A stretch of DNA of 24,668 bases from a virus (IMGVR_UViG_3300007640_000226:1-24668), one strand, 5' to 3'. Positions 480 to 24,662 are shown, counted from the first letter of the stretch. Numbers and translations: made by a program. Notes: generated by a model not told the origin, from the sequence alone.

Positions 480-502
480 CTTGACCTTCCCTATTTAATG
501 TA
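480..502 (+). promoter_or_regulatory. Late promoter candidate 1 (CTTGAC-N10-TAATGTA)
   Basis: CTTGAC at 480-485 and TAATGTA at 496-502 are separated by 10 bases, matching four other intergenic copies in the window. It overlaps the terminator hairpin at 483-511. If transcription begins a few bases after TAAT, the transcript would lack the hairpin's 5' arm and start close to the GGAGG ribosome site of the next gene. The function is inferred from recurrence and position. Confidence 0.5.
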
Positions 503-518
503 GGGAGGGTCTTTTTTT
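483..518 (+). terminator. Intrinsic terminator after the scaffold gene
   Basis: Arms GACCTTCCCTA (483-493) and TAGGGAGGGTC (501-511) pair over 11 bp with one G-U pair and a 7-base loop. Seven T residues follow (512-518). The 3' arm contains GGAGG (504-508), which is also the only ribosome site for the ATG at 519, so terminator and ribosome site share the same bases. Confidence 0.8.
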
Positions 519-803
519 ATGGCTACTAAATCAACTAAACCTGCAAAGGGAAAACGCTTTACCAAAACTTACACAGATAAGAAAACTGGAAGAAAGCGTA
601 AGGTTTCCTACGGGCAAGCAGGTGCAAAAAACAAATCAGGCAAACAACGCATTCAGCCCAGCACAAAGAAGGGCGATGCCTATTGCGCTCGTTCTTATGG
701 AATTAAAAAAGGACTACCAAAAGAAAAACAAAACGACCCTAACACCCCCAATAATTTAAGTCGTAAAAAGTGGAAATGTGTAGGCAAAAAGAGCCGAAGA
801 TAA
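519..803 (+). CDS. Small basic two-cysteine protein between scaffold and capsid
   Basis: This 94-residue protein is very rich in Lys and Arg, with a disordered basic N-terminus. Its C-terminal half is compact: KKGDAYCARSYGIKKG, a D-P-N-T-P-N-N motif and LSRKKWKCVGKK. The two cysteines (C56 and C87) lie in the motifs YCARS and KWKC. I recall similar YCARS...NLSRKKWKC proteins in other phage and algal virus genomes, annotated only as unknown, and cannot confirm a family name. Charge and location suggest a nucleic-acid-binding or packaged virion protein, but that is inference. The start is fixed by GGAGG at 504-508, ten bases upstream, inside the preceding terminator stem. It appears to have its own late promoter (480-502), and the next one follows directly at 810. 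Confidence 0.75.
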   Translation: MATKSTKPAKGKRFTKTYTDKKTGRKRKVSYGQAGAKNKSGKQRIQPSTKKGDAYCARSYGIKKGLPKEKQNDPNTPNNLSRKKWKCVGKKSRR

Positions 804-809
804 TTTTTA

Positions 810-833
810 CTTGACGATTTCTTACTTAATGAG
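810..833 (+). promoter_or_regulatory. Late promoter candidate 2 (CTTGAC-N11-TAATGAG)
   Basis: CTTGAC at 810-815 and TAATGAG at 827-833 are separated by 11 bases. It sits 7 bases after the stop of the small basic protein and drives the capsid module. It would leave an unusually long 5' leader of about 155 bases before the capsid ATG, whereas the other copies sit only about 20 bases from their genes. Confidence 0.6.
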
Positions 834-992
834 ACGGGCAACCTTTCCCTCCGTAAAATCTATTGACCTCTTTGAGACACCAAGGATTTAAAAATGGTGA
901 AGGAACTAAAAACTAAAACCTCTTTCCAGAGACACTTTTAATTTTAGATAATTCACAATCATAGGATTTTACAAAAAAGGAAGGATAAAACT
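834..992 (+). promoter_or_regulatory. Long 5' leader of the capsid gene, with repeat and short ORF
   Basis: This 159-base stretch separates late promoter 2 from the capsid ATG. It holds a direct repeat, ACCTCTTT(CCA)GAGACAC, at 866-880 and 918-935. Each copy can form a small CTC...GAG hairpin. A 15-codon ORF (894-941) is preceded by AAGGA at suitable spacing. The capsid gene's own site, GGAAGGA, ends just before the start. A role in mRNA stability or capsid translation is possible but unproven. Confidence 0.4.
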
Positions 993-2006
993 ATGGCTAT
1001 TTCTAATGACTTGCTTTCCTCAACCCTCTATTCTATCCGTGATGGAGAGGTTGATGCTCTTTACCAGAAGGTCGCATTTCTAGACCACGCCCGTAAGAGC
1101 GGAGGAATTGATTACGAAGATGGTGGGATTAAAATTCAGCGTCCCCTATCAATTGCGGAACACAGCACAATCACCGAACTACCTACTGGCTATGAACCTG
1201 TTTCACTTGCCGTTAAGGATGTTTTGCAGCCAGCAATCTACGACTGGTGTGATTTCACCGCTCCAATTGTTATTACCCGTAAGGAAGAATTGGAGAACAG
1301 CGGCGAAAAGGCTATTGTTAAAATCGTAGAAGCCAGAATGAGAAGCGTTATGTCTATGCTTCGTAGGGAACTTAACAAGCAAATTCTTGCTGGTTCTTCT
1401 ACCATTCTCACCACTATGAATTCTCTTAATGGTGATGTTGGTGGTTTCCTAGAAGCCGAGACCAAGCCAAACCAGAATAATGTTGTTGGTGGTGTTTCCA
1501 AGGCAACCTTTAATGTTAATGGCTGGACTAACCAAGTCTTTGATGTTGGTGCTGCTTTCGGCACAGACGGCATTAGAGGAATGCAGCAGATTTACATTAA
1601 CGCAAACAGCGTCTCTCCTATGGGCGAGATTGATTGTGTGCTTTTAAGTGAGGCTGCTATGGCGAACTATCGTCGTGCGCTTTTCGCACAGGAACGCTAC
1701 ATCAGCGAAAGCACCCTTGATGGTGGTAGAATGAGCCTTGCATTTGCAGGTGCTGCCGTAGAGCAGGACTTGGAACTTGGTTTCCTCTACAATAGTGCTG
1801 ACTTTGGTAATGCTCCACTTTCAGGTTATTTCCTCAACTTTGACGGGATTAAACTTGTTTTCCACAAAGATGCTGACTTTGCTGTTAGTCCTTTTGAGGA
1901 TGTTGCTGGAACAACTGCCCGTGCCGCTCAACTTTATGTTAAGGCACAACTTATTGCCGACCATCTTGGCTCACAGGGTGTCCTGTTTGATGGCGACACA
2001 TTCTAA
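993..2006 (+). CDS. Major capsid protein (HK97-type fold likely)
   Basis: This 337-residue protein is the likely shell subunit. It begins with a short helical N-arm, has no obvious cleaved delta domain, and has a basic segment around residues 25-45. A pattern I associate with this class of capsid proteins follows: YDWCDFTAPIVITRKEELENSGEKAIVKIVEAR, then a long helix containing MLRRELNKQILAG. The middle and C-terminal parts are beta-rich with Gly-rich loops (GEIDCVLLSEAAMANYRRALF; SGYFLNFDGIKLVFHKDADF), as expected for the A- and P-domains. Its length is in the usual 300-400 range. It follows the scaffold gene and precedes a decoration-type gene, the standard head-gene order. GGAAGGA lies just upstream of the start. 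The HK97-fold assignment is from general pattern and position rather than a search. Confidence 0.85.
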   Translation: MAISNDLLSSTLYSIRDGEVDALYQKVAFLDHARKSGGIDYEDGGIKIQRPLSIAEHSTITELPTGYEPVSLAVKDVLQPAIYDWCDFTAPIVITRKEELENSGEKAIVKIVEARMRSVMSMLRRELNKQILAGSSTILTTMNSLNGDVGGFLEAETKPNQNNVVGGVSKATFNVNGWTNQVFDVGAAFGTDGIRGMQQIYINANSVSPMGEIDCVLLSEAAMANYRRALFAQERYISESTLDGGRMSLAFAGAAVEQDLELGFLYNSADFGNAPLSGYFLNFDGIKLVFHKDADFAVSPFEDVAGTTARAAQLYVKAQLIADHLGSQGVLFDGDTF

Positions 2007-2041
2007 TGCGTAGTGCTAATTATTAATAAAGGAGAAACATT

Positions 2042-2608
2042 ATGGCTACACAAACTTTAATTAACTATTTGGAAACTACACAGAAAGATGGTTTCGGTGC
2101 CTCCGTTGATGTTGGACTTGCCGCTATGAACCGCAGACAGGTAGAGACCTTTAAAGCCGATGCAGCACTTACTGCTGGCGATTGGGTTGCTCTATCTCTC
2201 GGTGATGGTGCTGGTGCTACAAACACAGATGGTGTCGCTGCTATTTCTGTGCGTCCCGCTGACCTAAACGATGCTGGTGGTCTTGCTGCTACTACCTCTA
2301 TCGCTTCTATCGTTGTCGGTGTTGTCCTCGGTCCTGCTTCTAGCAGAGACGATGATGGCTCTGGCGGTGTGGTTCAGGGCGGTTCTGCCCTTATCTGCAC
2401 CCGTGGAATTTGCGAAGCGAAGGTTAATGATGCTGGTGCTGCGATTAATCGTGGTGCTGCTCTATCTGCAACCAACACCGCTGGTGTTAGTGATGCTTAC
2501 CTTGCTGCTTCTACTTTCGGCATCTGTGGTCTTCTAATTGACCCAGTTGCTGGTGGTGGTGCAGGCTTCGTTTCCAGAAGTGTTTATGTAATGCCTTCTC
2601 TTACCTAA
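2042..2608 (+). CDS. Capsid decoration or cement protein
   Basis: This 188-residue protein is rich in Ala, Gly, Val and Thr, with predicted beta strands and almost no long helices. Segments such as FKADAALTAGDWVALSLGDGAGA and IVVGVVLGPASS, followed by a repeat of the same style (ICEAKVNDAGAAINRGAALSATN), resemble the DUF2190-type capsid cement proteins. Those carry alternating 'A-G-D-V-V' and 'G-V-A-L' strands and sit immediately after the capsid gene. It would bind the outside of the expanded capsid and stabilise it. It has a strong ribosome site (AAAGGAG) and shares a transcript with the capsid protein, which suits an abundant product. A terminator follows 34 bases after the stop. Confidence 0.65.
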   Translation: MATQTLINYLETTQKDGFGASVDVGLAAMNRRQVETFKADAALTAGDWVALSLGDGAGATNTDGVAAISVRPADLNDAGGLAATTSIASIVVGVVLGPASSRDDDGSGGVVQGGSALICTRGICEAKVNDAGAAINRGAALSATNTAGVSDAYLAASTFGICGLLIDPVAGGGAGFVSRSVYVMPSLT

Positions 2609-2640
2609 TGGTAAGATTACATTACAGGTAAAGGAGAACT

Positions 2641-2724
2641 ATGCCCCTTCCCCTCTCTGGGGTTGGGGCTTTTTCTTTACTTGACTTTTACTACATAATG
2701 AGAACAAGAGGAATTACATTATGA
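2641..2724 (+). CDS. Possible 27-codon leader peptide spanning a terminator and promoter
   Basis: An ATG at 2641 has a strong ribosome site (TAAAGGAG, spacing 4-5). Its frame runs through the whole terminator hairpin and late promoter 3, and ends in TGA at 2722-2724, overlapping the ATG of the next gene as ATGA. The peptide starts MPLPLSGVGAF. No homology can be seen. Ribosomes on it would disrupt the terminator and couple to the tail gene. It may equally be a decayed or chance ORF. Confidence 0.3.
   Translation: MPLPLSGVGAFSLLDFYYIMRTRGITL
2643..2678 (+). terminator. Intrinsic terminator after the capsid module
   Basis: GCCCC (2643-2647) pairs with GGGGC (2665-2669), and CCCC (2650-2653) pairs with GGGG (2659-2662). 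A TT/TT internal bulge separates the two stems, and the loop is TCTCT. A T-run with one C follows (2670-2678). It lies directly before late promoter 3, insulating the capsid transcript from the tail module. Confidence 0.85.
2680..2702 (+). promoter_or_regulatory. Late promoter candidate 3 (CTTGAC-N10-TAATGAG)
   Basis: CTTGAC at 2680-2685 and TAATGAG at 2696-2702 are separated by 10 bases. It lies between a terminator and the tail module, with the next ATG 18 bases downstream and AGAGGA between them. This is the clearest copy, because its position leaves no other role for the sequence. Confidence 0.7.
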
Positions 2725-4253
2725 ACCTTACAGCCCTACGAGAAAAAATAAAAAACATAACTGACTATTCCCCAGACTTGCAGCAGTTTAACGACCAGAT
2801 GGATGAGATTGTTAATGATGCTCTTTATGCAATCTGGACTATGAAGCGTTGGACTTTTGCTACAAAGACTATCAACTATCGTCTTTACCCAGACATCCTA
2901 CCAGATAGAGACACAGCAAATGTTGTTGCTCCTGCTACATCAGTAGGGATTAGTTGGGTGCAGGGAGAAAGGCGTGTTCTATTTCAGTTTGGAATTGATA
3001 GGCTAGAAAAGGTTGGTGTTATTGATGCAAAGAACATTTGGGAAGGACAGCCTATGGAGATTGAGAACCGAGACTACATTATTGCAAAGGTTGTTAATAA
3101 GGCAGAGATTATCCTAGCAGAACCAGTTGTTGCACCTACACCTACTGCTGGAACATTTAAAACTAATTGGGCTATTAAAAAAAGAACTTATGATTTACCA
3201 GAGGATTGTTTAGAATTACTTTACTTCGGTCATCGTGATTATCCATTTAACACATCAGCAGGTTCATTTCCTCCTTATGGTAAATCAACTGCTATTATGC
3301 CTCGTAGAGAAGAGCAGGTAGATTTAAGAGCAGATTACAAATCATCCTACGCAGAGGCTTATGTTTGGTCTCCTGCTTATCAGGTTCCTGCTGCCGAGAA
3401 ACTAGAACTTACAGAAATAAACGACATAGGCACAGGCTTCCTAGGAAACACTTATTATGAATTCTGTTGGGCTTTTGAGGTTGCTGGTAAGTTAGGTGCA
3501 TTAAGCGAACCTGCTACAATCCAGATGAGCGAGGGAAATAATAATGCAATTCTTTTTACTTGTAAGTCTTGGGATGGAACAGACATCATAGCAGATGCTT
3601 ACAATAACTTTGATGAATTGCCTACACCTTGGCGTGGAGCAAGAAAGGTTTTCTTCTACAATAAAAATCTAAACAGACAGACAGGAGAAAGACAAGGACT
3701 TCCTTGTTGGGTTCAGGTTATTAATGGTGGGATTTTTAGAAACACAGAAAACTACAACGATTATTATTTTATTAATGATGAAAGTGCAACAGGGGCTTTG
3801 ACTAACATTAACCAGTTAGACAACGGACAGAAGCGTTATGTAGAGATTGACGGACAACACCAGCAGATTAGACCTTACCCAAGACCTGATGGATTTGATG
3901 AGGTAATAGCACAGGTTAAAAACGAGCAGTCAATTACAACATTCCAAGACTTCCGTAGAGATGCAATCATTCGTTATTACAAGAAACCAGAAGACTTAAC
4001 ACTTTGGACTGATAGTCCAGAGATGCCTTATGAATTCCACCAGTTGATTGTGTTTAAAGCATTAGAAGACATTTACTTAAAGATGGGACAAGAAGGTTTA
4101 TCTAACACTTACCGCAAAAGAATTGAGACAGAAGTTAAAGGCTTGCAGAAGCGTTATTGCGACCACATAGACAGCCAAGTGCAAAGAGGTCAGTTTGGCG
4201 TTAATCGTCAGGCACCGCTCTATGATTACCAATCTTTAAGGAGAATTAACTAA
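2721..4253 (+). CDS. Head-tail connector or tail tube-type protein
   Basis: This 510-residue soluble protein begins with a helix pattern often seen in podovirus head-tail adaptor and tail tubular A proteins: regularly spaced N and D residues, then MDEIVNDALYAIWTMKRWTFATKTINYRLYPD. There, 'aL..iW..rrW.Fat' is followed by beta strands. The middle is a beta-rich insertion with immunoglobulin-like character (ELTEINDIG...TYYEFCWAFEVAGKLGALSEPA). The C-terminus returns to helix with 'QLIVFKALEDIYLKMGQEGLSNTYRKRIETEVKGLQKRY', again as in adaptor proteins. T7 gp11 is much shorter (about 196 aa), so this would be an enlarged form. The next gene starts on the last base of its stop codon (TAATG), so the two are translationally coupled, as gp11 and gp12 are adjacent in T7-like phages. 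The exact role is inferred. Confidence 0.55.
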   Translation: MNLTALREKIKNITDYSPDLQQFNDQMDEIVNDALYAIWTMKRWTFATKTINYRLYPDILPDRDTANVVAPATSVGISWVQGERRVLFQFGIDRLEKVGVIDAKNIWEGQPMEIENRDYIIAKVVNKAEIILAEPVVAPTPTAGTFKTNWAIKKRTYDLPEDCLELLYFGHRDYPFNTSAGSFPPYGKSTAIMPRREEQVDLRADYKSSYAEAYVWSPAYQVPAAEKLELTEINDIGTGFLGNTYYEFCWAFEVAGKLGALSEPATIQMSEGNNNAILFTCKSWDGTDIIADAYNNFDELPTPWRGARKVFFYNKNLNRQTGERQGLPCWVQVINGGIFRNTENYNDYYFINDESATGALTNINQLDNGQKRYVEIDGQHQQIRPYPRPDGFDEVIAQVKNEQSITTFQDFRRDAIIRYYKKPEDLTLWTDSPEMPYEFHQLIVFKALEDIYLKMGQEGLSNTYRKRIETEVKGLQKRYCDHIDSQVQRGQFGVNRQAPLYDYQSLRRIN

Positions 4254-6541
4254 TGGCTATGAAATCTCAAAAGATTAGTTTTGTTGATGCTGCTGGTCTA
4301 GACCAACGCTACAAAGGTCAGTTAGGTTATGCAGATAAAATTTACAATTTTCGCATAGACCCTAATGGTTTAGGTTGGGTGTGTGATAGAGGAATAGAAA
4401 GTTGGTGGAAGTTTCCCCAATCTTTTACACTTGTAGGTAATGCAACATCTATTACAAAACATTTGCTTTATCCAACTGATGCTTGCTTTATCTGGGAGAA
4501 ATCCAGCACAGGACAAATTTATTATTTTTGGGAAAGAGGTGGTGATTTACTTTATGCTTGGGGTAATAAAGGGCAAGGCTCGGCTTATGCAGGAAACTAT
4601 TATTACAACGATTTTGTTTATTTGCAGAGCGATAGAAAAAGACCAAAGACAAATGAAGTAGGAACACAATTTATTCCTTATGGTAATCGCCTTTTAATTA
4701 TCAACGGCTACGATAAGCCAATCTGGTTTAGTGGAAATGAAGATTTTAGAGATTTCAGTTTCTCTCTACCAACAGCATCTCCACAGGTTTCACCTTTGCA
4801 GCCATCTTATCTTGATGGAGATGATTTAGAAGGAGGAACTTGCGGTCCTGTCTTCGGTCAAAAATCAACTTTGGGACTTGGTTTTGCTGATGATGAACGC
4901 TCAAACTATTTTTGGTTTATGACTTACATTACAGAAGATGGTGCTGAAAGTCCTTTGTCTGCACCTGTTTCTACTAACTGGCTTCCATCAACAGCAGCAC
5001 AGCAGCAGAGATTTGGTGTTGTCCTACAACTACCACAAGGTGCAGAAGGAACAACTGCTCGCAGACTTTACAGAACAAAGAACATTCGTCGTGTTGGTGC
5101 AACAGATGCTAATGATGCTCTTTATTTCTTTGTTAAGGAATTTGAGGATAATAGCACCACACACTACATAGACATTACACCTGATAGTGCATTAGTAGTT
5201 CAGGCACCAGAGACATTTGCTTCATCAAAGATTAACACTACTTACAAGTTTGGTGCTGCTTGGGACAACCGCATTTGGCTTGGTGGTGGAGACAGCACAC
5301 CAACTAGAATTATTTACAGCGAGAAAGGAAATCCAGAACAATTTGGTTCTTTTAATTTCTTTGAGATTGGTTCTACTGGTGGAGGACACATAACACAACT
5401 TTATTCTTATTACAATAACTTGTTAGTGTTCCGTAGAAATTCTATTGAGATTATTAGAAGAGACGGGCAAGGTAATCCTACAATCTCAACCCTAGCAAAT
5501 AACTTGGGAACTATTGCATCAAATGCTATTTGTTCTGTTGCAAACCTAGGTGTTATGTTTATGAACGAAGAAGGCATCTTCCTAATCCAAGGTGGTTTAG
5601 ATGGTGGCTCACAGATTACAATTACCCGTGTAAGCGAGACACTAGATAAAGAAATTGCTGAAATAAATAAAGCAGCACTAGGTAATGCTTGGGCTTGTTA
5701 TTCTCCACAGGAAAGAGAAGTCTGGTTCCATTTTGCAACAGATAGTAATTCAGTTCCTACAAAGGGATTGGTTTATCATTTAGATAATGGGATGTGGTCT
5801 ATTAGAGGTGCAGTAGGAAATGCTAATGAAAATCTATTTCGTTTTACTTGTGCTGCTACTGACCCAGAAGGACACTTTGTTATGGGATGCGCTCCTTCTT
5901 GGACTGGTCTAGGTGGTTCAGGCTCTCCTATTATTATTGGTTCCTTTGGGGCTTCTGTCTCTCCGCTTGTAGTTTGGTCTGGTAGTCGTTCATTCGGTCA
6001 AACATTCTTCGTGCAAGGTTTTAATCAGGACACAGCAACTTATCAAGTTAATGATGTTAATAGACCAGCAGCAGTCTGGGAAAGTAATTGGATTGACTTT
6101 GGAGATAATAGCGTCAAGCATCGTGTTTATTCAGTAGAAGCAGAAATTCTTTCTTATGGTGATTTATCACTTGCATTAGATTATGCTACTGATTACGATG
6201 TTGATTTTGTTTCAGCGGGAGGACAAAAACAATCAAAGAATGAGCGTGTCTTTACAACAAAAGAAGACCCTGTGTTTGGTGCTGGTGATGGTGCTATTAC
6301 CAAAGTTCCATTTACAATAAGCAACGATAGATTAAAAGATGCAAGAATAATTCGTCTTCGCTGGGACACTAACACACAATTAATAAATCAATTTAAATTT
6401 AGATTACAGACACAGCCAGCCAAAGAACTGGAACCTGCTAATGTTCCTTTCCACCTTATTAGTTTTCACATAAACTACGACACAGCAGACATCCAAACAC
6501 TAAATCAAAGAACAAGACTTAATAAGGGGCAAGCAAGATAA
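4253..6541 (+). CDS. Tail nozzle-type protein (tubular B or stabilisation-like)
   Basis: This 762-residue protein is beta-rich throughout and has no signal peptide. Repeated strand pairs with conserved aromatics recall the propeller-like nozzle proteins (T7 gp12, about 794 aa; P22 gp10-type stabilisation proteins). Characteristic stretches are FGAAWDNRIWLGGGDSTPTRIIYSEKG, LYSYYNNLLVFRRNSIEIIRRDG, and NAICSVANLGVMFMNEEGIFLIQGG followed by EVWFHFATD...GLVYHLDNGMWSIRG. Length and place, right after the adaptor-type protein and overlapping its stop by one base, fit. The C-terminal 170 residues form another beta domain (WIDFGDNSVKHRVYSVEAEIL). It probably builds the distal tail tube to which the fibre proteins downstream attach. 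The assignment is by fold impression and synteny. Confidence 0.6.
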   Translation: MAMKSQKISFVDAAGLDQRYKGQLGYADKIYNFRIDPNGLGWVCDRGIESWWKFPQSFTLVGNATSITKHLLYPTDACFIWEKSSTGQIYYFWERGGDLLYAWGNKGQGSAYAGNYYYNDFVYLQSDRKRPKTNEVGTQFIPYGNRLLIINGYDKPIWFSGNEDFRDFSFSLPTASPQVSPLQPSYLDGDDLEGGTCGPVFGQKSTLGLGFADDERSNYFWFMTYITEDGAESPLSAPVSTNWLPSTAAQQQRFGVVLQLPQGAEGTTARRLYRTKNIRRVGATDANDALYFFVKEFEDNSTTHYIDITPDSALVVQAPETFASSKINTTYKFGAAWDNRIWLGGGDSTPTRIIYSEKGNPEQFGSFNFFEIGSTGGGHITQLYSYYNNLLVFRRNSIEIIRRDGQGNPTISTLANNLGTIASNAICSVANLGVMFMNEEGIFLIQGGLDGGSQITITRVSETLDKEIAEINKAALGNAWACYSPQEREVWFHFATDSNSVPTKGLVYHLDNGMWSIRGAVGNANENLFRFTCAATDPEGHFVMGCAPSWTGLGGSGSPIIIGSFGASVSPLVVWSGSRSFGQTFFVQGFNQDTATYQVNDVNRPAAVWESNWIDFGDNSVKHRVYSVEAEILSYGDLSLALDYATDYDVDFVSAGGQKQSKNERVFTTKEDPVFGAGDGAITKVPFTISNDRLKDARIIRLRWDTNTQLINQFKFRLQTQPAKELEPANVPFHLISFHINYDTADIQTLNQRTRLNKGQAR

Positions 6542-7272
6542 TGTCTAAAACTTACGCAAAAAGACCAGCATTTAGATTTCAGGCTGTAAAGCCAGAGAAC
6601 ATTAATGATAATCTGGACGGAACATTAAAAGAAATAAATGGAAACTTAAACGCAAATAACTTTCCAGTTGATGCTTTAACATTTGATAATTTTGCTGATG
6701 CTTCTTCTACGGAAGTTTTTGCAAATGGAAATAGAACACTAACTTATTCAGGTGCAACACAAGATTACCATAGAATAAAAAGATGGAATGTTGCAGAAGG
6801 TGGGCTAGATGTTTGGGAACCAATCACATCTATTAATTTACCAACAGCAAACTGGACTACTGGTTGGAATAAATTAACTGATTATGGTTCTATGGATTAC
6901 ACCTTCTTGGAATTTGACGCACAAGAAGGAATGCTTACAGGTTGTGCTGTTATTGATTTTTTCCACGGCGTAGATAGAATTGTTTATCAAAGCGACGACA
7001 CTACATTTAGAATTTTCTTTGGTGAAGATTGGTGGAGCGAATGGGGTGTGTTTGTAAATGATGTTCTTGTTGCAGAGACTTCTTGGATTTATGCTCGCAG
7101 AATTACTTGCACTATTCCTTTTAAAGTTCCTGTTGGTTCGCAGAATGTAAAAATAGATTTGCGTTGGAGAGCATTAACAAGTGATGCTGTTGGAACTAAC
7201 TATCAAGGTAATCCCAGCAGACCAATAGACATCTATGGTGCTGAAATAATGTGCCGCAACACAAAGAGGTAA
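6541..7272 (+). CDS. Virion or fibre-like protein A
   Basis: The protein has 243 residues. A short N-terminal segment, VKPENINDNLDGTLKEINGNLNANNFP, looks like a virion-attachment helix with regularly spaced Asn. It is followed by a wholly beta-type body with many aromatics (EDWWSEWGVFVNDVLVAETSWIYARRITCTIPFKVPVG). The start ATG overlaps the previous stop by one base. It is the first of three consecutive genes of 226-243 codons with the same design: an N-terminal Asn/Leu-rich helix and a beta-sandwich-like body. This suggests tail fibre or appendage subunits, perhaps lectin-like. I see no enzyme motif. The precise role is unknown. Confidence 0.5.
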   Translation: MSKTYAKRPAFRFQAVKPENINDNLDGTLKEINGNLNANNFPVDALTFDNFADASSTEVFANGNRTLTYSGATQDYHRIKRWNVAEGGLDVWEPITSINLPTANWTTGWNKLTDYGSMDYTFLEFDAQEGMLTGCAVIDFFHGVDRIVYQSDDTTFRIFFGEDWWSEWGVFVNDVLVAETSWIYARRITCTIPFKVPVGSQNVKIDLRWRALTSDAVGTNYQGNPSRPIDIYGAEIMCRNTKR

Positions 7273-7276
7273 TCAA

Positions 7277-7957: not shown

Positions 7958-7960
7958 ATT

Positions 7961-8671: not shown

Positions 8672-8676
8672 ATGCT

Positions 8677-8699
8677 CTTGACTTTTTCACTATTATGAG
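8677..8699 (+). promoter_or_regulatory. Late promoter candidate 4 (CTTGAC-N10-TTATGAG)
   Basis: CTTGAC at 8677-8682 and TTATGAG at 8693-8699 are separated by 10 bases. It lies in the 38-base gap between the fibre-like genes and the ejection trio. GAGG within and next to the element may double as the ribosome site of the next gene. There is no terminator before it, so it adds to read-through transcription. Confidence 0.65.
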
Positions 8700-8709
8700 G
8701 AAATAAATT

Positions 8710-9381
8710 ATGGACCCAATTACATTAGCAATCCTAGGTGCAACAGCAGGCACAGCAATCTCTCAACTTCCAAACATTATCCCATCAAAGTTTGAGAGAG
8801 AACAAAAGAAAAGAATGCAAGATTTGCAGCGCAAAGAAGAAATGGGACTTCTTGGCTTAACTGATAAAGAAAGAGCAGCATTAGAAGGTAGGCTAGAAAG
8901 CAAATCTATTGCTGCCGCTGATTATGCAGCACAGGAAAGACAGAGAGCATTAGCAGGAATGGGTCAGGGTGTTGCTGGTGCAAAACTATTAGAAGCACAG
9001 GTTGCTGACGAGCAGTTAAGAGCGCAGAACCAAGCAGTAAGTCAGGCTATTGCAGAACAAGACCTAGCAAAAGAACAGGCACAGATTGATGAACTGCGAG
9101 CATTAGAAGCAGCACAGGGTGAATTTGCAGCCCGTAGAGCGCAAGGGATTGCATCTATTGGAGCCGCTGGTGTTGAGGCTGGGTTTAGTTCAGCAGCACA
9201 GCAGAAGATTATTCAGGGTGCAACCACACCATCACAGAATTCTGTTTCAGCAATCGCACAACTTTATGGGATTAGCGACGACCAAGCAAGAGGATTGATT
9301 GAGATTAGTGCAAAAAATCCAGAGGCACTTTCTCTTTACAGAACTTTAAACGCTACACCAACCACAACCACAGGGCAGTAA
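8710..9381 (+). CDS. Internal virion (ejection) protein, gp14-like
   Basis: The protein has 223 residues. The N-terminus has one Gly/Ala-rich hydrophobic helix (residues 4-25, TLAILGATAGTAISQLPNII). It is followed by about 150 residues of Ala/Gln/Glu-rich amphipathic helix (ERQRALAGMGQGVAGAKLLEAQVADEQLRAQNQ) and a second small Gly/Ala segment near residues 146-160. T7 gp14 is of similar size, also helical with a hydrophobic N-terminus, and forms the outer-membrane pore during genome ejection. Here too it comes first in a trio of small, about 750-residue and very large proteins. The start has a GAGGAAA ribosome site that overlaps late promoter 4. There is no sequence identity I can quote; the call rests on architecture and synteny. 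Confidence 0.5.
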   Translation: MDPITLAILGATAGTAISQLPNIIPSKFEREQKKRMQDLQRKEEMGLLGLTDKERAALEGRLESKSIAAADYAAQERQRALAGMGQGVAGAKLLEAQVADEQLRAQNQAVSQAIAEQDLAKEQAQIDELRALEAAQGEFAARRAQGIASIGAAGVEAGFSSAAQQKIIQGATTPSQNSVSAIAQLYGISDDQARGLIEISAKNPEALSLYRTLNATPTTTTGQ

Positions 9382-9385
9382 AATA

Positions 9386-11614
9386 ATGGCTATTAGACAA
9401 GTAAATGGAAGAAACGCTTATGTTATTGAGGTAGAACAGCCAACTGCAAGAACCAGTCGTGGTGAAGGCTACGCTCAACTTATCACTAATCTCCGCTGGA
9501 AGATGTGGGAAGAAGCACAGAAAAGCGAATTGATGGCGTTAGAATTTGAGAAGTTGGCTTATCAGCAGCAACTTAAAATCTATGCAGACCAGCAAAGATT
9601 GATTAGAGGCGAGATTGCAAAAACAAATGCTGCTATTAATGCGCTCAACAGAGCCGAACTAACAAGAGACCAGCAGTTAGAAAACAACTTACAATCAGCA
9701 GAGAATGCAGAAGCAAGGCGTGTAGCCCAAGCAAGAGAAGCCCGTTTGCGTCAGCAGTCATCACAGGAATTTGCAGGACAAGAACAAATAACAACAACCG
9801 AAAGAGAGACTGCTGGTTCAGGTGGTCGTGGTGCAAAAACACAAGAAGAATTAATTGCTGATTTATCTAGTGATAGTCAGGATAGTTTCCAGCGTGTTAG
9901 AGAAATAAGCACAAGAGCAGCCGCTAGTGAAACTGATGAAGAACAAAGAATTAGAACACAAGCAAGTGAAGCAACAACCCAAACCAACTTCCAGTTAGGT
10001 GAAGGTGGTGGAATTACTGCTGGTGATGAAAGAACTATGAAAGCAGCAGTTGTTGCTGCCTCTGTTAAGGATGCAAGAGACAGGGCTATTGCTGATGGTA
10101 GAGACCCTAATGCAGCAGAACAATCAGTTCTTTCTGCTTATGGTGCTGATTATGTTGCAGACTATCAATCATTCCAAACTGCACCAGAAGAAACACCGCC
10201 AGCAGGTGGAGCAGGAGGAGACCTATTAGAAGGAACCTCTACAAGACAACAAAGAGAAGCGAAGCCTATTCAGCAAGGCATTTCAGGTGCAGGTGTAGGA
10301 AAAGCAGAAGCCGTAGATTATTCCAAAGAAAGAGAAAGATTACAAAAAGAACTTTTAGATTTACAAGCAGAACTTGGTGGGCTACAATTACCTACTGCTC
10401 CATCTGTTGATTTGCTAGAAAGAACAAGAGGCAAATTCCAATCTGCTTATGGAGAAGGTGGCTTTGGTTTAGCACCAAGACCTACCAGAATGCTTCCTCG
10501 TTTTGACGAACCTGCTGCAACAAGAGCAGCACAAGACATCGCTGCATTTGGAGCAGACAAAGCACTAGCAGATTTTCGTGCTGCTAATCCAGATGTAGAA
10601 CTAAACCCTCAACAGATTGCATCAATCCGTCGTCAGGGTGTTCTTGGAATGTTAAACCAGTTAGGGGGTAGAGAAGTTGCGGAACAAGATTTCCTTGATT
10701 TTAGAACAACGGAACCTGCAACGCTCCCCCCGTCCAAAACAAGAGAACCAGAACTTCCACCTATGGAAGAAGAAGAACCAATAGCACAGGAGCCTATGCT
10801 TACCAGACCTGTTCCACAAAGAATAGGTTTGCCTGCATCACAACTTCCTGTGTCTGGTGAATTAGAACAGCAGTTGTTAGAAGAAGACCGAATGAGAGAA
10901 ATGCAAGGTCTTCCTCCACAGCGTTATGGTAGTTCTTTCCAGCCAGTCCAAAAAACACAAACCGCTGCTGACTTCCTTGCTGAAATGAGAGCATTAGGTT
11001 TTGAGGAACAAGCATTACAAAGATTACAAATGGAACAAGGAATTCAGGAGCAAGGTGCATCTGCTTATTACCAGCAGCAAATCCCAACTGAAACTTACCA
11101 AGCACCTCCAACATTTGGCGAGCGTGTTAGTAGTCTTATTCCAACACCTGTTGATAGAAGAACAGAAGCAGGGATTGCAAGAGAAGAAGAATTAGCACAG
11201 ATGCCTTCTCAACGCATTAATCCATTTACAGGACAAGTAAAACAAATTCCATCCCGTGCTGAAAGAGACGCTGAAAGAGCGGCTCAAAGAGCAGAGACTA
11301 CGATGGATAGAAGAAATGCTTACAAAATCAAAATGATTGAGAAAGCAACCCGTCTTGCAAATCAGCCAAAGAAGTTTGAGAGAATTGCAAAAACAAATCT
11401 ACCACCAGAGGAAAGAGCCAGAAAGGTTGCTGACTATGTTATTGTTGTAGATAATCTTTACGCTGCTAATAGCAGAGAAGGTGGAGACCCAATCCAACCT
11501 TCTTACGCAGAGATTAACAGGGTTTATGCCGATGACCCAAAGACCAGAGAACAAGCAACATCTTATTTATTAGCAAAACAAATTCTAGACACTACAATCC
11601 AGAACCCAGAATAG
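9386..11614 (+). CDS. Internal virion (ejection) protein, gp15-like
   Basis: This 742-residue, almost wholly helical and disordered protein matches the length of T7 gp15 (about 747 aa). Residues 40-135 form a long coiled coil rich in Gln, Glu and Arg. A second, KERERLQKELLDLQAELGGLQL, lies near residues 312-333. The centre (about 440-500) is Pro/Glu-rich and probably flexible. The C-terminal 140 residues are again helical (ERIAKTNLPPEERARKVADYVIVVDNLYAANSR). Such proteins form the middle of the trans-envelope ejection tube. It lies between a gp14-like and a giant gp16-like gene, 4 bases after the former. Its ribosome site is weak (an AGGG about 13 bases upstream), so translation may depend on coupling to the gene before it. 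Confidence 0.5.
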   Translation: MAIRQVNGRNAYVIEVEQPTARTSRGEGYAQLITNLRWKMWEEAQKSELMALEFEKLAYQQQLKIYADQQRLIRGEIAKTNAAINALNRAELTRDQQLENNLQSAENAEARRVAQAREARLRQQSSQEFAGQEQITTTERETAGSGGRGAKTQEELIADLSSDSQDSFQRVREISTRAAASETDEEQRIRTQASEATTQTNFQLGEGGGITAGDERTMKAAVVAASVKDARDRAIADGRDPNAAEQSVLSAYGADYVADYQSFQTAPEETPPAGGAGGDLLEGTSTRQQREAKPIQQGISGAGVGKAEAVDYSKERERLQKELLDLQAELGGLQLPTAPSVDLLERTRGKFQSAYGEGGFGLAPRPTRMLPRFDEPAATRAAQDIAAFGADKALADFRAANPDVELNPQQIASIRRQGVLGMLNQLGGREVAEQDFLDFRTTEPATLPPSKTREPELPPMEEEEPIAQEPMLTRPVPQRIGLPASQLPVSGELEQQLLEEDRMREMQGLPPQRYGSSFQPVQKTQTAADFLAEMRALGFEEQALQRLQMEQGIQEQGASAYYQQQIPTETYQAPPTFGERVSSLIPTPVDRRTEAGIAREEELAQMPSQRINPFTGQVKQIPSRAERDAERAAQRAETTMDRRNAYKIKMIEKATRLANQPKKFERIAKTNLPPEERARKVADYVIVVDNLYAANSREGGDPIQPSYAEINRVYADDPKTREQATSYLLAKQILDTTIQNPE

Positions 11615-11625
11615 AGGAATAATTA

Positions 11626-14600
11626 ATGGCTCCACCTACACTAGACCAGCAAATCGCACAGGCGATGCTTCTGCAAGATGAAGCAGATAGAGAAAGAGAA
11701 CTTATCCGTCTTCTACAACAGAAGCAAACACAATTCGTTCAGGCAAGAACAAACGAATTAATCCAGTCTGCACCTTTTACTGGAACACCAGAAGAAGCAA
11801 AAGCAATCGCACAGGATGAATTTACCAGCGATTATCTTATGCCTTTGCAATCAACCTTTGGAACATTACCAGAAAAAGTTTTTGATTTCTCACTTGCTGC
11901 TACACCTTTTGAGATGGCTGGCTTTGAGGAGCCTGCACCTCCTATGCAGTTGCCTCCTAGACCAGAAGATGGTGCGCCTGATTTATTTACTGCTTTAAGA
12001 CCACAGGTTTATCTTCCAGATTATTCTGCTGAAAGTGAAAGGTCTAGGGTTGCAGCAGAAAGCACAATTGATTTTGCAAAATTAGAAGAAGCATTTAGAG
12101 AACAAGAAGGAATGGATGAGGCGCAAGCAAAATTGCAGCGTGAAGCCATCCAGAGAGCCTATGATGCCGTTAGAAGAAACAACCCTACCAGACCCCCTGA
12201 TGTAATTTTTAAAGAGGTTCTAGGGGAACTGGAAGCCCTTGGAAGCACTTTGCAGGGTGAGGGTGCTATGCTCCAAGACGAGCAAGCGGCTAGGGTCGGT
12301 CCTGCTGACCCTCTTTATCAAGCGTTTGTTAGGCAGAGGCAGCAGGGGGCTGCCGTGCCTGACCTTACACCAGCACAGATTGCTTACTTTGATGTTATTT
12401 ACAAAGACCAGCAAAGACAATTTAGAGAAGAAACAGCAGAAGAATTAACAGGACAGACCGAGCGTTATTATCGCTTACCTGATGGAACAGATGTTCTTGC
12501 TGATGCTTACGACATCCAAAGACAACAAACCACAGAACTTCCTGACCCTGTTAGTGAATTCCAAAAACCAATAGAAAGAGAGCAAGCAGAAGTTCGTGCA
12601 AGAACTATGCAAGCAGGAGCAGTCCCAGACCTTTGGTGGGCTGACCCAGAAAAGAAACCAAAAGTTCTTGCTGACCCAGAAGCCTACACGCAGTTAGGAA
12701 TTTTTAGTTCTACTACACCATTCGGTGGAACAATAGAAACACCTGCTGGTTGGTTTCTTCGCTCTGCTATGTCTCCTCTTAACATAGGTGCTTCTGCTAT
12801 GTTTGAGGGAACCACAACATTATTTGAGGGTGCCTTTACAGAAGAGGGCGAAAAAACATTACAAGAATTAAGACAGGAAAGCAGAGAAGAAAAGACACCT
12901 CTTTATGCAGATAGTCCAATTCTTTTAAATGTTGCAGAAAATCGTGGCTTCACTATGGAGATGAACGAAAGTGCAGACTTAATGGAGATGTCGCCCACAG
13001 GCAAAGTTCTTATGACTGCTGGTGGTTTTATGCTTGATTTGCTAGACCCTTCGCTTGGAATGGCTGGTGGTGCTGCAAAAGGATTGAGAACAACAGGACA
13101 ACTTTACAAAGCCCGTCGTGCAATCTATGGTGGAGAGAAAGCACTATCATCTTTAATGACCGCAGGTAAAACAGGTGCTGGTGTTGGCGCTCGTTATTTC
13201 CTAGATGATTTAAATTTTGTTTCTATTCTCACACCTAATCGCTTTAAGACTAATCTTCCTGTTGGTGATGTTCGTTCTGTTATGGCTGCTGACCTTGCTG
13301 GTTCTCTTGGTGCAAGAGAGATTGCAAGAGCAGAGGCTAGTGCGGAGAAAGCATTAGCAAGAATTGCAGAGGAAGGATTAGAAAACACTTCTTATGGTAA
13401 AGCATTAAGAGAAGCATTAGAAGGTGCTGCTCCTGAAAACTATGGAAAGATTGTAGATGAACTTGATAGTTTGCTGACCCCAAGGACAACAGGCGCTACT
13501 GGTGCAGCAGATGAATTAATCGGCAGAGCAGGCACACCGCTAGATGAAATGACTAGGGTTGTTGATGACTTTGACGGACAGATGCGTTCTCTTGATGAAA
13601 TGGGAACAGGAGCAAAAGGTCTTGGTAAAATTAATGCAGATGATTTAGCACACAACCTTGGTGCATTAGCAAAGCGTGATGAAGCAGTAGATGCTCTCTT
13701 GCGTCAGGTTGATGAGGCTGCTGGGACAGGACCGAAGTTGGCTCGTTATGTTGAGGCGATTTACAATTCACCAGATGCTGCAACACTTGTTCCTAGATTA
13801 AAAAATCAATTCGCTTTTGATAGAGCCTTGGCTTATGTTTATGAAAACACAAAGGGACTTACTGGCTTTGATGACCTCCGTGCTATTACAAGAAACACTT
13901 GGGCGAGAAAAGAACAAGCAGCAAAAATTCTAGAACACACCAGAGATAAAACTGAAATTGGTAAAATCGCAAGGGAAATGGTTGAGAACGATGTAGAAAT
14001 TGTTATGGCTCAAACCAAACCACAGATTGCTACACCAGCAAGAGAAACTGGTAGTAGAGGAATGACTGGAACCCAAGCAGCCGAAGGTCGTTTTGTTCCA
14101 CATTACAATTTAAAAAATCAACCAGAACTAATAGAAAGACTTAAAGCAGTTGCTCGTAAGTTAAATGATTATGGTAAGTTAAGCAACAAACAATTAAGCG
14201 ACATCGTTAGAGGATTAGACTACCGAGGTGGTTTAATTTCTACTGGTGATTTCCGTGCTTTGATGGAAGGCACAACTGATTTGGTTGCAGAAGGTTTATC
14301 TGCTGGTTCTCGTTCTCCACTTATGCGTGGTAAAGATGTTGGAAGATTACCAGCAACAGAAGCAAACCTTATCCTAGAACCATTAGAGATGCGTTCCTTT
14401 GGTGCTGGTGCATTAAAGCGTTGGACTATTGAGACACTACAAGGTGGTGGTAAGGTTGAGGGTCGTGCTATTACGCCACAGCAAAGAAGTCTCGTTAGAG
14501 AGGCACAACAAGAGGCTTCTAACCTAGACACGAAATTAAGACAAACAGCAAAAGGAATTAAAACTTCTCCTGATTACGCTGCTCGCTATGGTGTCCCACA

Positions 14601-17298
14601 GATGGCTGATGCTTCTAATTCACAGGTAGTTGGTGTAGCAATTGTTGGAGAGAAACAAGGCGCAGGTTTTGATAGTCCATTTATTGCAGACCTAGGTGTG
14701 TTCCGTCAGTTGGCTGTTGTAGAAGAAGGAATTGCTTGGACTATTCGCAGACTATTCTATGTAGAAAAGAAAAGTGAAAGTTTGTTAGATGCTGTGCTTG
14801 GAAGCAAGTTAGTTTTTGAGGAGCAGTTCTTATCTTCACAAGGACAGAAACTTCTTGATGAGGTAATAACAGAAGCAGCAGAAGCAGCAATTAGAAATCC
14901 AGAACTTTATTGGGATAGTGTTAAAAAAGTTATTGATAAAATGGAACTTCTTATCAAGAACCCAGAGAACTTAAAACCCCGTGTTAATCCTAAAAACATC
15001 CAGCAGGTTATGAAAAAAACAGGTGGTCGCATTCCAGCAGAGGTGCAGGTAGGCAACTACTTTTACAACGAAACTACTAGGATTATGGATAGAAAAATCA
15101 CCGAACTTATTGATGGCGACCCTATGGTTGATAGATTTGTTTATTCGCCGCCATCCACTACTGCTGCTGTTAAGCCAGATAATCTAGGTGATTTCGTAAA
15201 GAACTATGGATTTGATGGAGACACACAAGCATTCTATCGTGAATTAGTTAAAGAAAGAGCAGTCAATCAAGTTGCTGGTAGAAATGCTGGTGATGAATTA
15301 TCAATCTTTGAGGATGTTTTAAAGGTTCTAAAAAAGAAAGCACCATCAAGGGGAGCCATAGAAATAGTAGAAGAAGTCCCCGACTACATTAAAGCAAACA
15401 TCCAGCAACTAGAAGACAACATTAACATTTTAAGAGCCACAATCCAAACAGGAGACCCAATTGCTATTGCTGGTGCAAGAAGAAGAATAATGCAATCACC
15501 TCTTGTGAAAGAAGCAATAGATGGATTTGTTAAAGCAGATGAAGCGGCTTCTGTTCTTGTTCGTCGTAATGGTTTGGATGATTATGGTTTCCACGGAAAT
15601 TACAAAGCAACAAGAAATCTATTAGATGATTTGGTTGGTTCTGGAAATGAAAACTACATCGCTGCTGTTATTGGTCGTGATGCTTATGATGAATTAGATG
15701 CAGCAGTTAAGGCTGGTAAGGGTAATTCATTCTCTGGTTATGTAGATGCTGCACTTCGTTCTGCAACTGGTAAGAAAGATTTAAAGCGTCTGTGGAATTC
15801 TCTTACTTATGTAATGCGTGAAATTAATAATGCTCGCTACAACTTCTTGCTTTCCGCTCGTCCTCGTTTCTCCGCAGCCAACTTATCTACTGCACCTTAC
15901 ATAGTTTATTCTACAATTGGTGAAGTAATAGGACCGACTGCTTTACACGGAGGACAGCAGATTGTAAGAAAGGGATGGGATGCAACAGACCCAAGAGGGT
16001 TGCAGGTTGGAGCCGTAGCACCTGATGGTAGAACCTACACTAATCTAGAAATTATGGAAGCATTAAGAAATGCAGGCATCCGTAGTGAATTTGGTTTTAT
16101 TACAGATGTTGCAACCCAGCAGAGAATTATTAACTTTGTTGAGGATAGAGGTGTCCTACAAAGATTTGCTAATTCACTTGGATTTAGATTTGGTGTTGAG
16201 GAAGGAACCAAGACTTTGGCTGCTAGATTTGTAGAAGGTGCAGGTCAGTTCTCGCAAGACATCGTTTTAAAACAGGACTTAATGTTCCGTGCTGCTGTTA
16301 TGAAGAAAGCACTAGAAGAAGGAAGGTCTATGCAGGAAGCAACAAACCTTGCTCGTCGTTCTCTCTTTGATTACAACGAATTAACAAACTTTGAGAAAGC
16401 ACTATCAGGCTACGCATTTATCTTCTATGCATTTAACAGACAGAACTTTGCAACCTTGCTTCGTGCTATGGCTGACCCAACAAAGATGAAACGCTACATT
16501 AATGTTCTAAAAACAGACAGAGGCATAAGTGCTGTGGCTCAAACTGCAAGCGGAACACAGCAAGACCCAGAAGTTTTTTATCCTGATTACACTTTATCTC
16601 GTCAATTATTGAGAGGGCAGACATCAGGAGATAGAGACATTTGGATTGCAGGACCGCCTGTTCCACCGATAGATGGGATGATTTTTATGGCTACGCTTAT
16701 GAAGAGAGGTGGCGCACAAGAACTAATCAAGAAGCAATTACATCCTAATGTGGCTGCTGCTCTTGGAACAGAAACTATGCCTAAATCTTTTAAGCAAGTT
16801 GCACCAGAACACATCGCTTATGCTTCTTTTGTTAATGATAGTCCTAATGAGATTGCTGGTTTTCTTTCTACAATTCTAGGTGGAGAGATTAGACCAGTTC
16901 CTTCTACTGATGAAACAGCAGTTGGTGGCTACATCTATCCTCTATCACCAGAACAACAGGCTGCTTACAAAGCATTTGATAAATGGGTGTTAGGCTTTAC
17001 AGGCATAGGCGCACCAGCAAATGATTACATCCGTTATGGTCTTGGTTTTTCTGCTGTTGAGGGAACACCACAAACACAGATGACTACATTTGAGCGTGTG
17101 CTTGGAACAGGACTTCCAACAACAGCACTTACATTTGTTCCTTATGTTGGTGCAGTTGCTCCTTACACAACACCTATGATGACCCCAATTAAAGCAACGA
17201 GACCAGAGACACAGAGGGCTTATGAGATTTATTCTCGCATAGATGCTATTAATGCGAGACTAAAACAAATGGGCGAAGAAGAGAAGAAAGAAAGATAG
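11626..17298 (+). CDS. Giant internal virion (ejection) protein, gp16-like
   Basis: At 1890 residues this is by far the largest protein here, bigger than T7 gp16 (1318 aa). The N-terminal 330 residues are helical and Gln/Glu-rich. Hydrophobic Gly/Ala stretches lie near residues 365-400 and 460-485 and could enter membranes. The middle is mixed helix. Residues 1410-1450 are hydrophobic (FSAANLSTAPYIVYSTIGEVIG). Residues about 1577-1625 carry LFDYNELTNFEKALSGYAF followed by IFYAFNRQNFATLLRAM. This 'lfDY.eLT.fEk......Fy.f.R.N...llr' pattern I recall from the C-terminal part of other very large phage virion proteins. I see no clear lytic transglycosylase catalytic motif, which T7 gp16 has at its N-terminus. 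It is probably ejected with the DNA. A large uncharacterised middle region could hide other activities. Confidence 0.55.
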   Translation: MAPPTLDQQIAQAMLLQDEADRERELIRLLQQKQTQFVQARTNELIQSAPFTGTPEEAKAIAQDEFTSDYLMPLQSTFGTLPEKVFDFSLAATPFEMAGFEEPAPPMQLPPRPEDGAPDLFTALRPQVYLPDYSAESERSRVAAESTIDFAKLEEAFREQEGMDEAQAKLQREAIQRAYDAVRRNNPTRPPDVIFKEVLGELEALGSTLQGEGAMLQDEQAARVGPADPLYQAFVRQRQQGAAVPDLTPAQIAYFDVIYKDQQRQFREETAEELTGQTERYYRLPDGTDVLADAYDIQRQQTTELPDPVSEFQKPIEREQAEVRARTMQAGAVPDLWWADPEKKPKVLADPEAYTQLGIFSSTTPFGGTIETPAGWFLRSAMSPLNIGASAMFEGTTTLFEGAFTEEGEKTLQELRQESREEKTPLYADSPILLNVAENRGFTMEMNESADLMEMSPTGKVLMTAGGFMLDLLDPSLGMAGGAAKGLRTTGQLYKARRAIYGGEKALSSLMTAGKTGAGVGARYFLDDLNFVSILTPNRFKTNLPVGDVRSVMAADLAGSLGAREIARAEASAEKALARIAEEGLENTSYGKALREALEGAAPENYGKIVDELDSLLTPRTTGATGAADELIGRAGTPLDEMTRVVDDFDGQMRSLDEMGTGAKGLGKINADDLAHNLGALAKRDEAVDALLRQVDEAAGTGPKLARYVEAIYNSPDAATLVPRLKNQFAFDRALAYVYENTKGLTGFDDLRAITRNTWARKEQAAKILEHTRDKTEIGKIAREMVENDVEIVMAQTKPQIATPARETGSRGMTGTQAAEGRFVPHYNLKNQPELIERLKAVARKLNDYGKLSNKQLSDIVRGLDYRGGLISTGDFRALMEGTTDLVAEGLSAGSRSPLMRGKDVGRLPATEANLILEPLEMRSFGAGALKRWTIETLQGGGKVEGRAITPQQRSLVREAQQEASNLDTKLRQTAKGIKTSPDYAARYGVPQMADASNSQVVGVAIVGEKQGAGFDSPFIADLGVFRQLAVVEEGIAWTIRRLFYVEKKSESLLDAVLGSKLVFEEQFLSSQGQKLLDEVITEAAEAAIRNPELYWDSVKKVIDKMELLIKNPENLKPRVNPKNIQQVMKKTGGRIPAEVQVGNYFYNETTRIMDRKITELIDGDPMVDRFVYSPPSTTAAVKPDNLGDFVKNYGFDGDTQAFYRELVKERAVNQVAGRNAGDELSIFEDVLKVLKKKAPSRGAIEIVEEVPDYIKANIQQLEDNINILRATIQTGDPIAIAGARRRIMQSPLVKEAIDGFVKADEAASVLVRRNGLDDYGFHGNYKATRNLLDDLVGSGNENYIAAVIGRDAYDELDAAVKAGKGNSFSGYVDAALRSATGKKDLKRLWNSLTYVMREINNARYNFLLSARPRFSAANLSTAPYIVYSTIGEVIGPTALHGGQQIVRKGWDATDPRGLQVGAVAPDGRTYTNLEIMEALRNAGIRSEFGFITDVATQQRIINFVEDRGVLQRFANSLGFRFGVEEGTKTLAARFVEGAGQFSQDIVLKQDLMFRAAVMKKALEEGRSMQEATNLARRSLFDYNELTNFEKALSGYAFIFYAFNRQNFATLLRAMADPTKMKRYINVLKTDRGISAVAQTASGTQQDPEVFYPDYTLSRQLLRGQTSGDRDIWIAGPPVPPIDGMIFMATLMKRGGAQELIKKQLHPNVAAALGTETMPKSFKQVAPEHIAYASFVNDSPNEIAGFLSTILGGEIRPVPSTDETAVGGYIYPLSPEQQAAYKAFDKWVLGFTGIGAPANDYIRYGLGFSAVEGTPQTQMTTFERVLGTGLPTTALTFVPYVGAVAPYTTPMMTPIKATRPETQRAYEIYSRIDAINARLKQMGEEEKKER

Positions 17299-17299
17299 A

Positions 17300-17323
17300 C
17301 TTGACGATTACTTAAATAATAGA
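17300..17323 (+). promoter_or_regulatory. Late promoter candidate 5 (CTTGAC-N11-TAATAGA)
   Basis: CTTGAC at 17300-17305 and TAATAGA at 17317-17323 are separated by 11 bases. It starts 2 bases after the stop of the giant ejection protein and lies 20 bases before the next ATG. A purine-only stretch (AGAAGAAGAAGGAG) follows TAAT, as in the other copies. Confidence 0.65.
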
Positions 17324-19592: not shown

Positions 19593-19667
19593 TGGAACGA
19601 CTACTGGGAATTAAACCCAGACCATCACCTTCGTAGGGCTGTGTGCTATTCATTACACCATAGTCGC
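19593..19667 (-). tRNA. tRNA-Arg(ACG)-like sequence, with encoded CCA and weak anticodon stem
   Basis: Read on the minus strand, the 75 bases fold as a cloverleaf. The acceptor GCGACTA pairs with TAGTCGT (7/7 with one G-U), followed by discriminator T and an encoded CCA. The D stem is GTGT/GCAC with loop AATGAATA. The anticodon loop is CTACGAA (anticodon ACG, Arg). The variable loop is 4 bases. The T stem CTGGG/CCCAG is perfect, with loop TTTAATT. The usual G19-C56 pair is replaced by A19-U56, a matched double change. The anticodon stem is poor: only 3 of 5 pairs form, with C27/A43 and A28/G42 mismatched. So it may be a functional but odd tRNA, a decaying one, or a tRNA-derived attachment sequence. 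A small hairpin flanks its 5' end. Confidence 0.5.
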
Positions 19668-21406: not shown

Positions 21407-21435
21407 ATTGTAGCATAAATAAATAGTTTCCGCAA
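21407..21435 (-). promoter_or_regulatory. Early-type sigma70 promoter for the minus-strand operon
   Basis: On the minus strand, TTGCGG (plus 21430-21435) is followed by 17 bases and TACAAT (plus 21407-21412). The same -35 and -10 hexamers and spacing recur at 23381-23409. The start would be about 40-50 bases before the ATG of the sigma-like gene. Confidence 0.75.
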
Positions 21436-21982: not shown

Positions 21983-22039
21983 ACTAATTAACTAATGTTG
22001 GAGGCAACAACTTAATAACTAATAAAGGAGATAATGATT

Positions 22040-24632: not shown

Positions 24633-24662
24633 ATGCCGAGAATAAAACAAAATAAATTAATG

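Follow-up and report, generated by a model that had tools for sequence, protein, structure and literature searches.

A compact TTGAC-TWAT motif precedes the virion modules of uncultured small phages and co-occurs with a sigma-70 region-4-like protein

The viral contig IMGVR_UViG_3300007640_000226:1-24668, a 24,668-nt stretch of DNA analyzed here as a whole (the window), carries a recurring motif, CTTGAC-N10/11-TAAT, that on the strength of its placement and conservation is almost certainly a family of late promoters of virion modules. The phages concerned are small and uncultured, and the motif stands before their capsid, tail, and packaging genes. We propose, with a probability of roughly 0.6, that these are the late promoters of a small phage without an RNA polymerase of its own, and that they would be read via a protein resembling region 4 of sigma-70 acting on the host polymerase. 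From comparisons among related sequences we infer that the motif is transcribed from, where exactly the RNA starts, which protein recognizes the motif, and that the polymerase is the host's.

The initial annotation of the window placed five copies of the motif, at 480, 810, 2680, 8677, and 17300, on the plus strand between genes. All five are indeed so located, each directly 5′ of a virion-region gene (beginning at 519, 993 [capsid], 2721, 8710, and 17343, respectively).

480 to 499, plus strand: motif copy, preceding the open reading frame (ORF) 519-803 and superimposed on a terminator-like hairpin in its 5′ arm.
810 to 830, plus strand: predicted late promoter for the major capsid protein; exact motif match, with an equivalent site in relatives.
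993 to 2006, plus strand: major capsid protein gene, matching phrog_9953.
2680 to 2699, plus strand: predicted late promoter of ORF 2721-4253; exact motif match, also in relatives.
8677 to 8696, plus strand: predicted late promoter of ORF 8710-9381; the Shine-Dalgarno sequence GAGGA adjoins its 3′ end.
17300 to 17320, plus strand: predicted late promoter of ORF 17343-18116; exact motif match, also in relatives.

The pattern CTTGAC-N10/11-TAAT has four exact matches, compared with 0.17 expected from dinucleotide shuffles of the window, and CTTGAC itself is intergenic at 6 of 6 plus-strand occurrences. The longer TAATGAG ending originally ascribed to the motif is exact at 810 and 2680 but gives way to TTATGAG at 8677, where the copy ends in TTAT instead of TAAT, to TAATAGA at 17300, and to TAATGTA at 480. 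Within genes, CTTGAC is not avoided relative to synonymous shuffles (30 seen, 32.8 expected), so the signal must comprise more than CTTGAC.

Relatives were drawn from 51 viral contigs recovered in a capsid-protein scan, a set that includes near-identical contigs, so that motif counts are not independent. In these contigs a relaxed form of the motif matches 57 plus-strand and 3 minus-strand intergenic sites, along with 21 plus-strand and 14 minus-strand sites in genes; a control with the reversed pattern yields 0 plus-strand intergenic matches. The sites precede homologues of the genes at 2721, 8710, and 17343, the capsid gene, and TerS, and in some contigs the portal gene. The motif is therefore present in close relatives at homologous module-start genes, and its conserved matches are intergenic and strand-biased; on neither point did the refuting conditions named in the initial annotation go against a promoter family. 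The nearest cultured phages share only ~25% capsid identity, and a prophage search for a host returned a single weak and uninformative match, in a contig of a metagenome-assembled genome.

The protein that we suspect of reading the motif is encoded in the early region, and its gene was overlooked in the initial annotation, as were the evidence on start sites and the fact that the 480 copy overlaps a terminator.

22034 to 22486, plus strand: gene for the sigma-70 region-4-like protein, our candidate for the late specificity factor, identified by Pfam, a profile match, and co-occurrence.

Region 4 is the domain that recognizes the −35 element, and TTGAC is the sequence that it reads there. The corresponding Pfam family (PF04545) is matched at cut-off by the window protein and above cut-off by eight relatives, and a PDB profile match identifies WhiG (E = 1.4e-9). 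The NCBIfam matches shown for the protein are to sigma models only, with no ArpU-type family, and there is a weak match to phrog_36, 'transcriptional regulator'. Structure prediction with AlphaFold was poor from a single sequence and, from 18 sequences, confident only in the region-4 part; a Foldseek search with the predicted structure returned mostly sigma domain 4 (best E = 6.7e-3), which is weaker support than that from Pfam and WhiG. Matches were confined to region-4 stretches, with none to region 2, the part responsible for −10 recognition and core binding, and some family members are just 102 to 118 residues long.

The gene is found in 9 of 9 motif-bearing contigs that span the early region and in 0 of 5 motif-free contigs (G008, G010, G012, G014, and G015); no other non-virion gene has that pattern of presence and absence. 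The motif-free set includes a complete genome, G012, bounded by 127-base terminal direct repeats, as well as the 34-kb G008 with all modules. At least two joint changes of gene and motif are needed on the trees of the capsid and of ORF 2721. Diverged contigs retrieved by means of the region-4-like protein alone, such as L095, L096, L106, and L110, carry the motif too. None of the nearest cultured phages has the region-4 protein. One further region-4 match, in G022, was set aside as a different small protein that is without the N-terminal part of the family, and no promoter could be assigned to the gene at 22034-22486 itself. Because the motif occurs only in genomes with the region-4-like gene, a factor that steers the host polymerase to late genes is probably supplied by the phage itself.

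The motif was originally described as two boxes with slightly variable spacing, too close together for sigma-70, and this description holds: from the end of TTGAC to the TATWAT-like stretch there are 8 to 9 bp, in the window copies and in relatives, as opposed to the 16 to 18 bp of sigma-70 promoters. The spacer is not neutral either. Across 43 related sites, position 12 is C at a frequency of 0.86 and position 13 is T at 0.86, and G almost never occurs at positions 14 to 20. One could nevertheless regard these sites as poor ordinary sigma-70 promoters used by the host holoenzyme alone, with TTGAC as the −35 and TWAT as the −10 element, one helical turn too close. TTGAC and TATTAT do resemble the two hexamers, a likeness also remarked on at the outset, but the same genomes have proper 17-bp promoters in their early regions.

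21407 to 21435, minus strand: candidate canonical early promoter TTGCGG-17-TACAAT ahead of the operon on that strand; TTGCGA-17-TATAAT is its equivalent in G002 and G004.
22996 to 23024, plus strand: candidate canonical early promoter TTGCGG-17-TATTAT before ORF 23059, read by eye and present in relatives.
23381 to 23409, plus strand: candidate canonical early promoter TTGCGG-17-TACAAT before ORF 23522, read by eye, with an equivalent in G006.

The early promoters of the window were read by eye, and since a consensus scanner was overall not above chance in the window, they rest on position and on relatives. At the place equivalent to 22996-23024, G004 and G006 have TTGACG-17-TATAAT/TATATT. In motif-bearing genomes, strong (10-11/12) canonical promoters are found in the early region only. 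Some relatives that lack the region-4 gene, by contrast, have properly spaced promoters at late genes: TTGACA-17-TACAAT (G008) and TTGACA-17-TAAAAT (G010) at the capsid gene, and TTGATA-18-TATAAT at the 2721 homologue of G012. The capsid proteins of G008 and G010 (L016 and L018) are ~82 to 83% identical to that of the window. The early genes of these two genomes differ from those of the window and include XRE-type regulators and, by eye, a DNA methylase. Together with the fact that the distance from box to TWAT is itself conserved among diverged phages, the early promoters and the gene-lacking relatives make unaided use by sigma-70 very improbable.

The initial annotation also drew attention to a likeness to promoters of single-subunit phage RNA polymerases. 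The layout is compact, and the start proposed below would be a purine, preceded by AT-rich positions −1 to −7 and lying directly after TATA/TWAT, as in T7. We searched for such an enzyme, whether T7-like or hidden in the virion, in G004, a motif-bearing relative of 30.1 kb that is in effect a complete genome: its ends abut, with 8 bases missing, inside a gene of which the near-identical G005 has an intact copy. G004 encodes virion and packaging proteins and a few small proteins. No recognizable RNA polymerase was found among them by a search that detects the T7 enzyme; PF00940 has no match in 22 records, G004 included, against 9.9e-110 for the T7 control. The large virion proteins have no consistent polymerase motifs (only scattered chance strings) and no PDB or Pfam match, and they occur in motif-free genomes too. 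Promoters of a single-subunit polymerase are consequently a reading to which we assign very little weight. A 1890-residue virion-region protein, encoded at 11626-17298 of the window, is conserved throughout the group and matches nothing significantly in Pfam, PHROG, or PDB.

The start of the RNA can be bounded by what lies immediately downstream of the motif. In ~20 distinct sites the Shine-Dalgarno sequence begins at motif positions 21 to 25 (the C of CTTGAC being position 1), and hence the RNA must start at or before about position 21 to include it. At the capsid gene, a predicted RNA structure sets a similar bound.

832 to 906, plus strand: putative structured capsid-leader RNA, indicated by covariation and by matches of a model built from it in relatives.

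In this leader, a hairpin (P1) is formed by pairing of 834-837 with 851-854, and a pseudoknot extends from the P1 loop to the GGTGAAGG strand. P1 begins at motif positions 22 to 25. Compensatory changes in P1 and the pseudoknot amount to 16 cells, versus 4.6 ± 1.6 in shuffled alignments, and 93.9% of cells are paired, versus at most 62% in slid controls. Because the structure was drawn on the same alignment, the slid controls somewhat favor it, and the argument is carried by the shuffle control and the two-sided changes. Energy folding of the leader alone (single-strand energies) did not show the fold. The leader also precedes the capsid gene in L007, L009, L012, L014, L015, L017, L019, L020, L036, L040, and others, and the model built from it matches, more weakly, before the capsid gene of the motif-free L021, L022, L024, and L025. 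This RNA is absent from Rfam.

A sigma-70-type start, 7 bases past TWAT, would delete both the Shine-Dalgarno sequence and P1. Thus TWAT probably occupies −4 to −1 and TTGAC about −20 to −16, with the start directly after TWAT, ~20 to 24 bases from the box; the placement of ribosome sites and hairpin, two independent constraints, does not accord with a start ~7 bases past a −10 element. Such a layout suits neither a −35/−10 pair of sigma-70 nor the T4 middle class. A −10 hexamer at positions 10 to 15 (TACTAT), which would fit the start proposed here, was considered and rejected as not conserved. In its full form, the architecture would have a phage protein consisting of region 4 by itself recognize a −35-type TTGAC box only ~16 to 20 bp upstream of the start, and host polymerase begin directly after TWAT with no conventional −10 element at −12 to −7. 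This is a joint claim that we advance tentatively, judging it about half as probable as its being wrong in some part.

The principal competing explanation retains both the region-4-like protein and its co-occurrence with the motif, but makes the protein an activator. Bound to CTTGAC, it would aid the host sigma-70 holoenzyme at a TATTAT-like −10 element (positions 15 to 20), and the RNA would start ~7 bases past TWAT, much as at T4 middle promoters. Positions 15 to 20 do resemble TATAAT, exactly so in L010, and T4 MotA, whose box lies 12 ± 1 bp from the −10 element, is a precedent (PMC2988021). Our motif has a gap of 8 bp where MotA would have 12, and a start near position 27 would remove the Shine-Dalgarno sequence at ~20 distinct sites as well as the covarying hairpin at the 5′ end of the leader. 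We therefore consider an activator unlikely, though less so than the other alternatives.

Terminators beside the motif bear on another possibility, namely that it acts at the level of RNA, as a place where longer transcripts are processed, and does not mark a start.

483 to 511, plus strand: predicted intrinsic-terminator hairpin followed by seven T (−20.8 kcal/mol, z −5.6).
2643 to 2669, plus strand: predicted terminator hairpin directly 5′ of the 2680 promoter (z −4.5), an order kept in relatives.

The motif is strand-specific and lies at the 5′ edge of leaders, as a processing site might. In relatives, on the other hand, it often stands directly behind a terminator; at the 2721 locus of most motif-bearing relatives, terminator, motif, ribosome site, and start codon follow one another within ~80 bases. 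Moreover, canonical promoters occupy the same places in motif-free relatives, and the motif is tied to a DNA-binding type of protein. A role in RNA processing is accordingly hard to credit.

The copy at 480 differs in that it sits within a terminator, in the 5′ arm of hairpin 483-511, whose 3′ arm contains the Shine-Dalgarno sequence of ORF 519. The same composite of motif and terminator hairpin recurs in the distant G021/L035/L041/L051 group (L035 1030, L041 3854, L051 7113). Its retention in two distant groups suggests that the 480 element is probably both promoter motif and terminator. RNA starting in the hairpin loop would leave the ribosome site free, and read-through RNA would either terminate or hide that site.

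In the mechanism that we favor, host RNA polymerase would transcribe the early genes from ordinary sigma-70 promoters with 17-bp spacers, among them the gene at 22034-22486. Its product, the region-4-like protein, would bind the TTGAC box and bring host polymerase to the late promoters, where the box lies near the start (~−20 to −16) and the AT-rich stretch behind it would be melted. RNA would begin at the first purines directly after TWAT, so that each start yields a very short leader with a ribosome site or, at the capsid gene, the structured leader RNA.

Several observations count against this proposal. No region 2 is visible in the region-4-like protein, and no conserved −10 element lies at −12 to −7 relative to the proposed start, so that promoter melting and start selection are left unexplained. 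The co-occurrence is based on few independent changes (two), and several of the contigs are fragments. G014 and G015 have no obvious canonical replacement promoter, and the G016-type group showed the motif at no gene other than that of the capsid. Finally, a very divergent polymerase may hide in the 1890-residue virion protein.

Other features concern the remainder of the window and its edge.

19838 to 19859, minus strand: probable motif copy, CTTGACGATTTCTCTAATAGTGAGAGG, with irregular spacing, upstream of tRNA-Arg.
19593 to 19667, minus strand: tRNA-Arg (ACG), downstream of the minus-strand motif copy.
24649 to 24668, plus strand: half site; a 20-bp repeat ends here, exactly where the contig does, by comparison with L005 and L085.

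The minus-strand copy at 19859, missed at first, lies ~170 to 190 bases upstream of the tRNA, and this arrangement with a minus-strand tRNA-Arg recurs in G002 and G004. It falls within a gene end, and protein conservation may therefore explain part of its conservation. The supposed half of a sixth copy at 24663 is not a motif copy: L005 and L085, 100% identical to the final 368 bases of the window, continue otherwise, with CTTGACGACAGGGCTGGGAGGCGTTAGATT (CTTGACGACAGGGC...). In these contigs the terminal 20-mer of the window occurs again 245 bp further on, this time at the head of a complete motif in front of TerS (repeat region L005 2702-2971), and another motif precedes the portal gene. The true terminase promoter, as predicted from these contigs, is ~245 bp beyond the contig edge. 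The first copy of the repeat in L005 resembles TTGACG-17-TAGATT and may be a sigma-70 promoter that serves a small gene. In plus-strand genes of the window, G002, G003, G004, and G006, CATGAC is absent (0 versus 9.3 expected) and GTCAAG depleted (19 versus 31.4 expected); neither is seen in motif-free genomes, and restriction avoidance is perhaps the cause.

Phages that rely on the polymerase of their host illustrate ways in which the choice of promoters can be rewired. In the present case, comparative genomics links an apparently minimal sigma fragment to a compact promoter of ~25 bases, and in relatives without the fragment canonical promoters take its place. Whether region 4 alone can redirect polymerase, and how near the start, thus becomes a directly testable question.

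It is well known that phage factors can redirect the host polymerase; examples are T4 MotA/AsiA, T4 gp55/gp33, and the Ltr regulators. T4 late promoters have a −10-type TATAAATA box as their sole element, and gp55 resembles region 2. The T4 late system and the present one would share sigma-like phage factors that act on host polymerase for virion genes, but here a region-4-like protein is paired with a TTGAC box. T7-type promoters are likewise compact, extending ~20 bp upstream of the start and AT-rich before a purine start, yet no such polymerase was found here and the spacing varies by one or two bases.

T4 middle promoters work by sigma appropriation; there, as proposed here, a phage protein reads a box that replaces the −35 element and host polymerase is used. 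The MotA box is centered at −30, 12 ± 1 bp from a good −10 element (PMC2988021). Our motif has no box at that distance from a strong −10 element; it lies 8 bp from TWAT with the proposed start adjacent, and MotA is no region-4 protein. Those early proteins of G004 that were scanned gave no Pfam match, and no search aimed at AsiA-like or MotA-like proteins was made. The Ltr/RinA/ArpU regulators of Gram-positive phages are similar in being small late regulators that act in front of the terminase and capsid genes. Ltr depends on clustered repeats 5′ of a TATA box at one late promoter (PMC13123087), whereas here a single box lies inside each of several promoters, with no repeat cluster.

A literature search found no paper describing this promoter class or the capsid-leader RNA. 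The non-virion RNA polymerase promoters of jumbo phages also have an adjacent start, in or directly after TATG in phiKZ and TA/G in AR9 (AACA-6N-TA/G), and AR9 likewise has a second upstream box (PMC5312081). Jumbo phages encode multisubunit polymerases, however, which the 30-kb phages studied here lack. In the present promoters, as reconstructed from sequence, TTGAC stands 8 bp from TWAT, the start would adjoin TWAT, and the protein reading the box would consist of region 4 only; no class tested here combines these three features.

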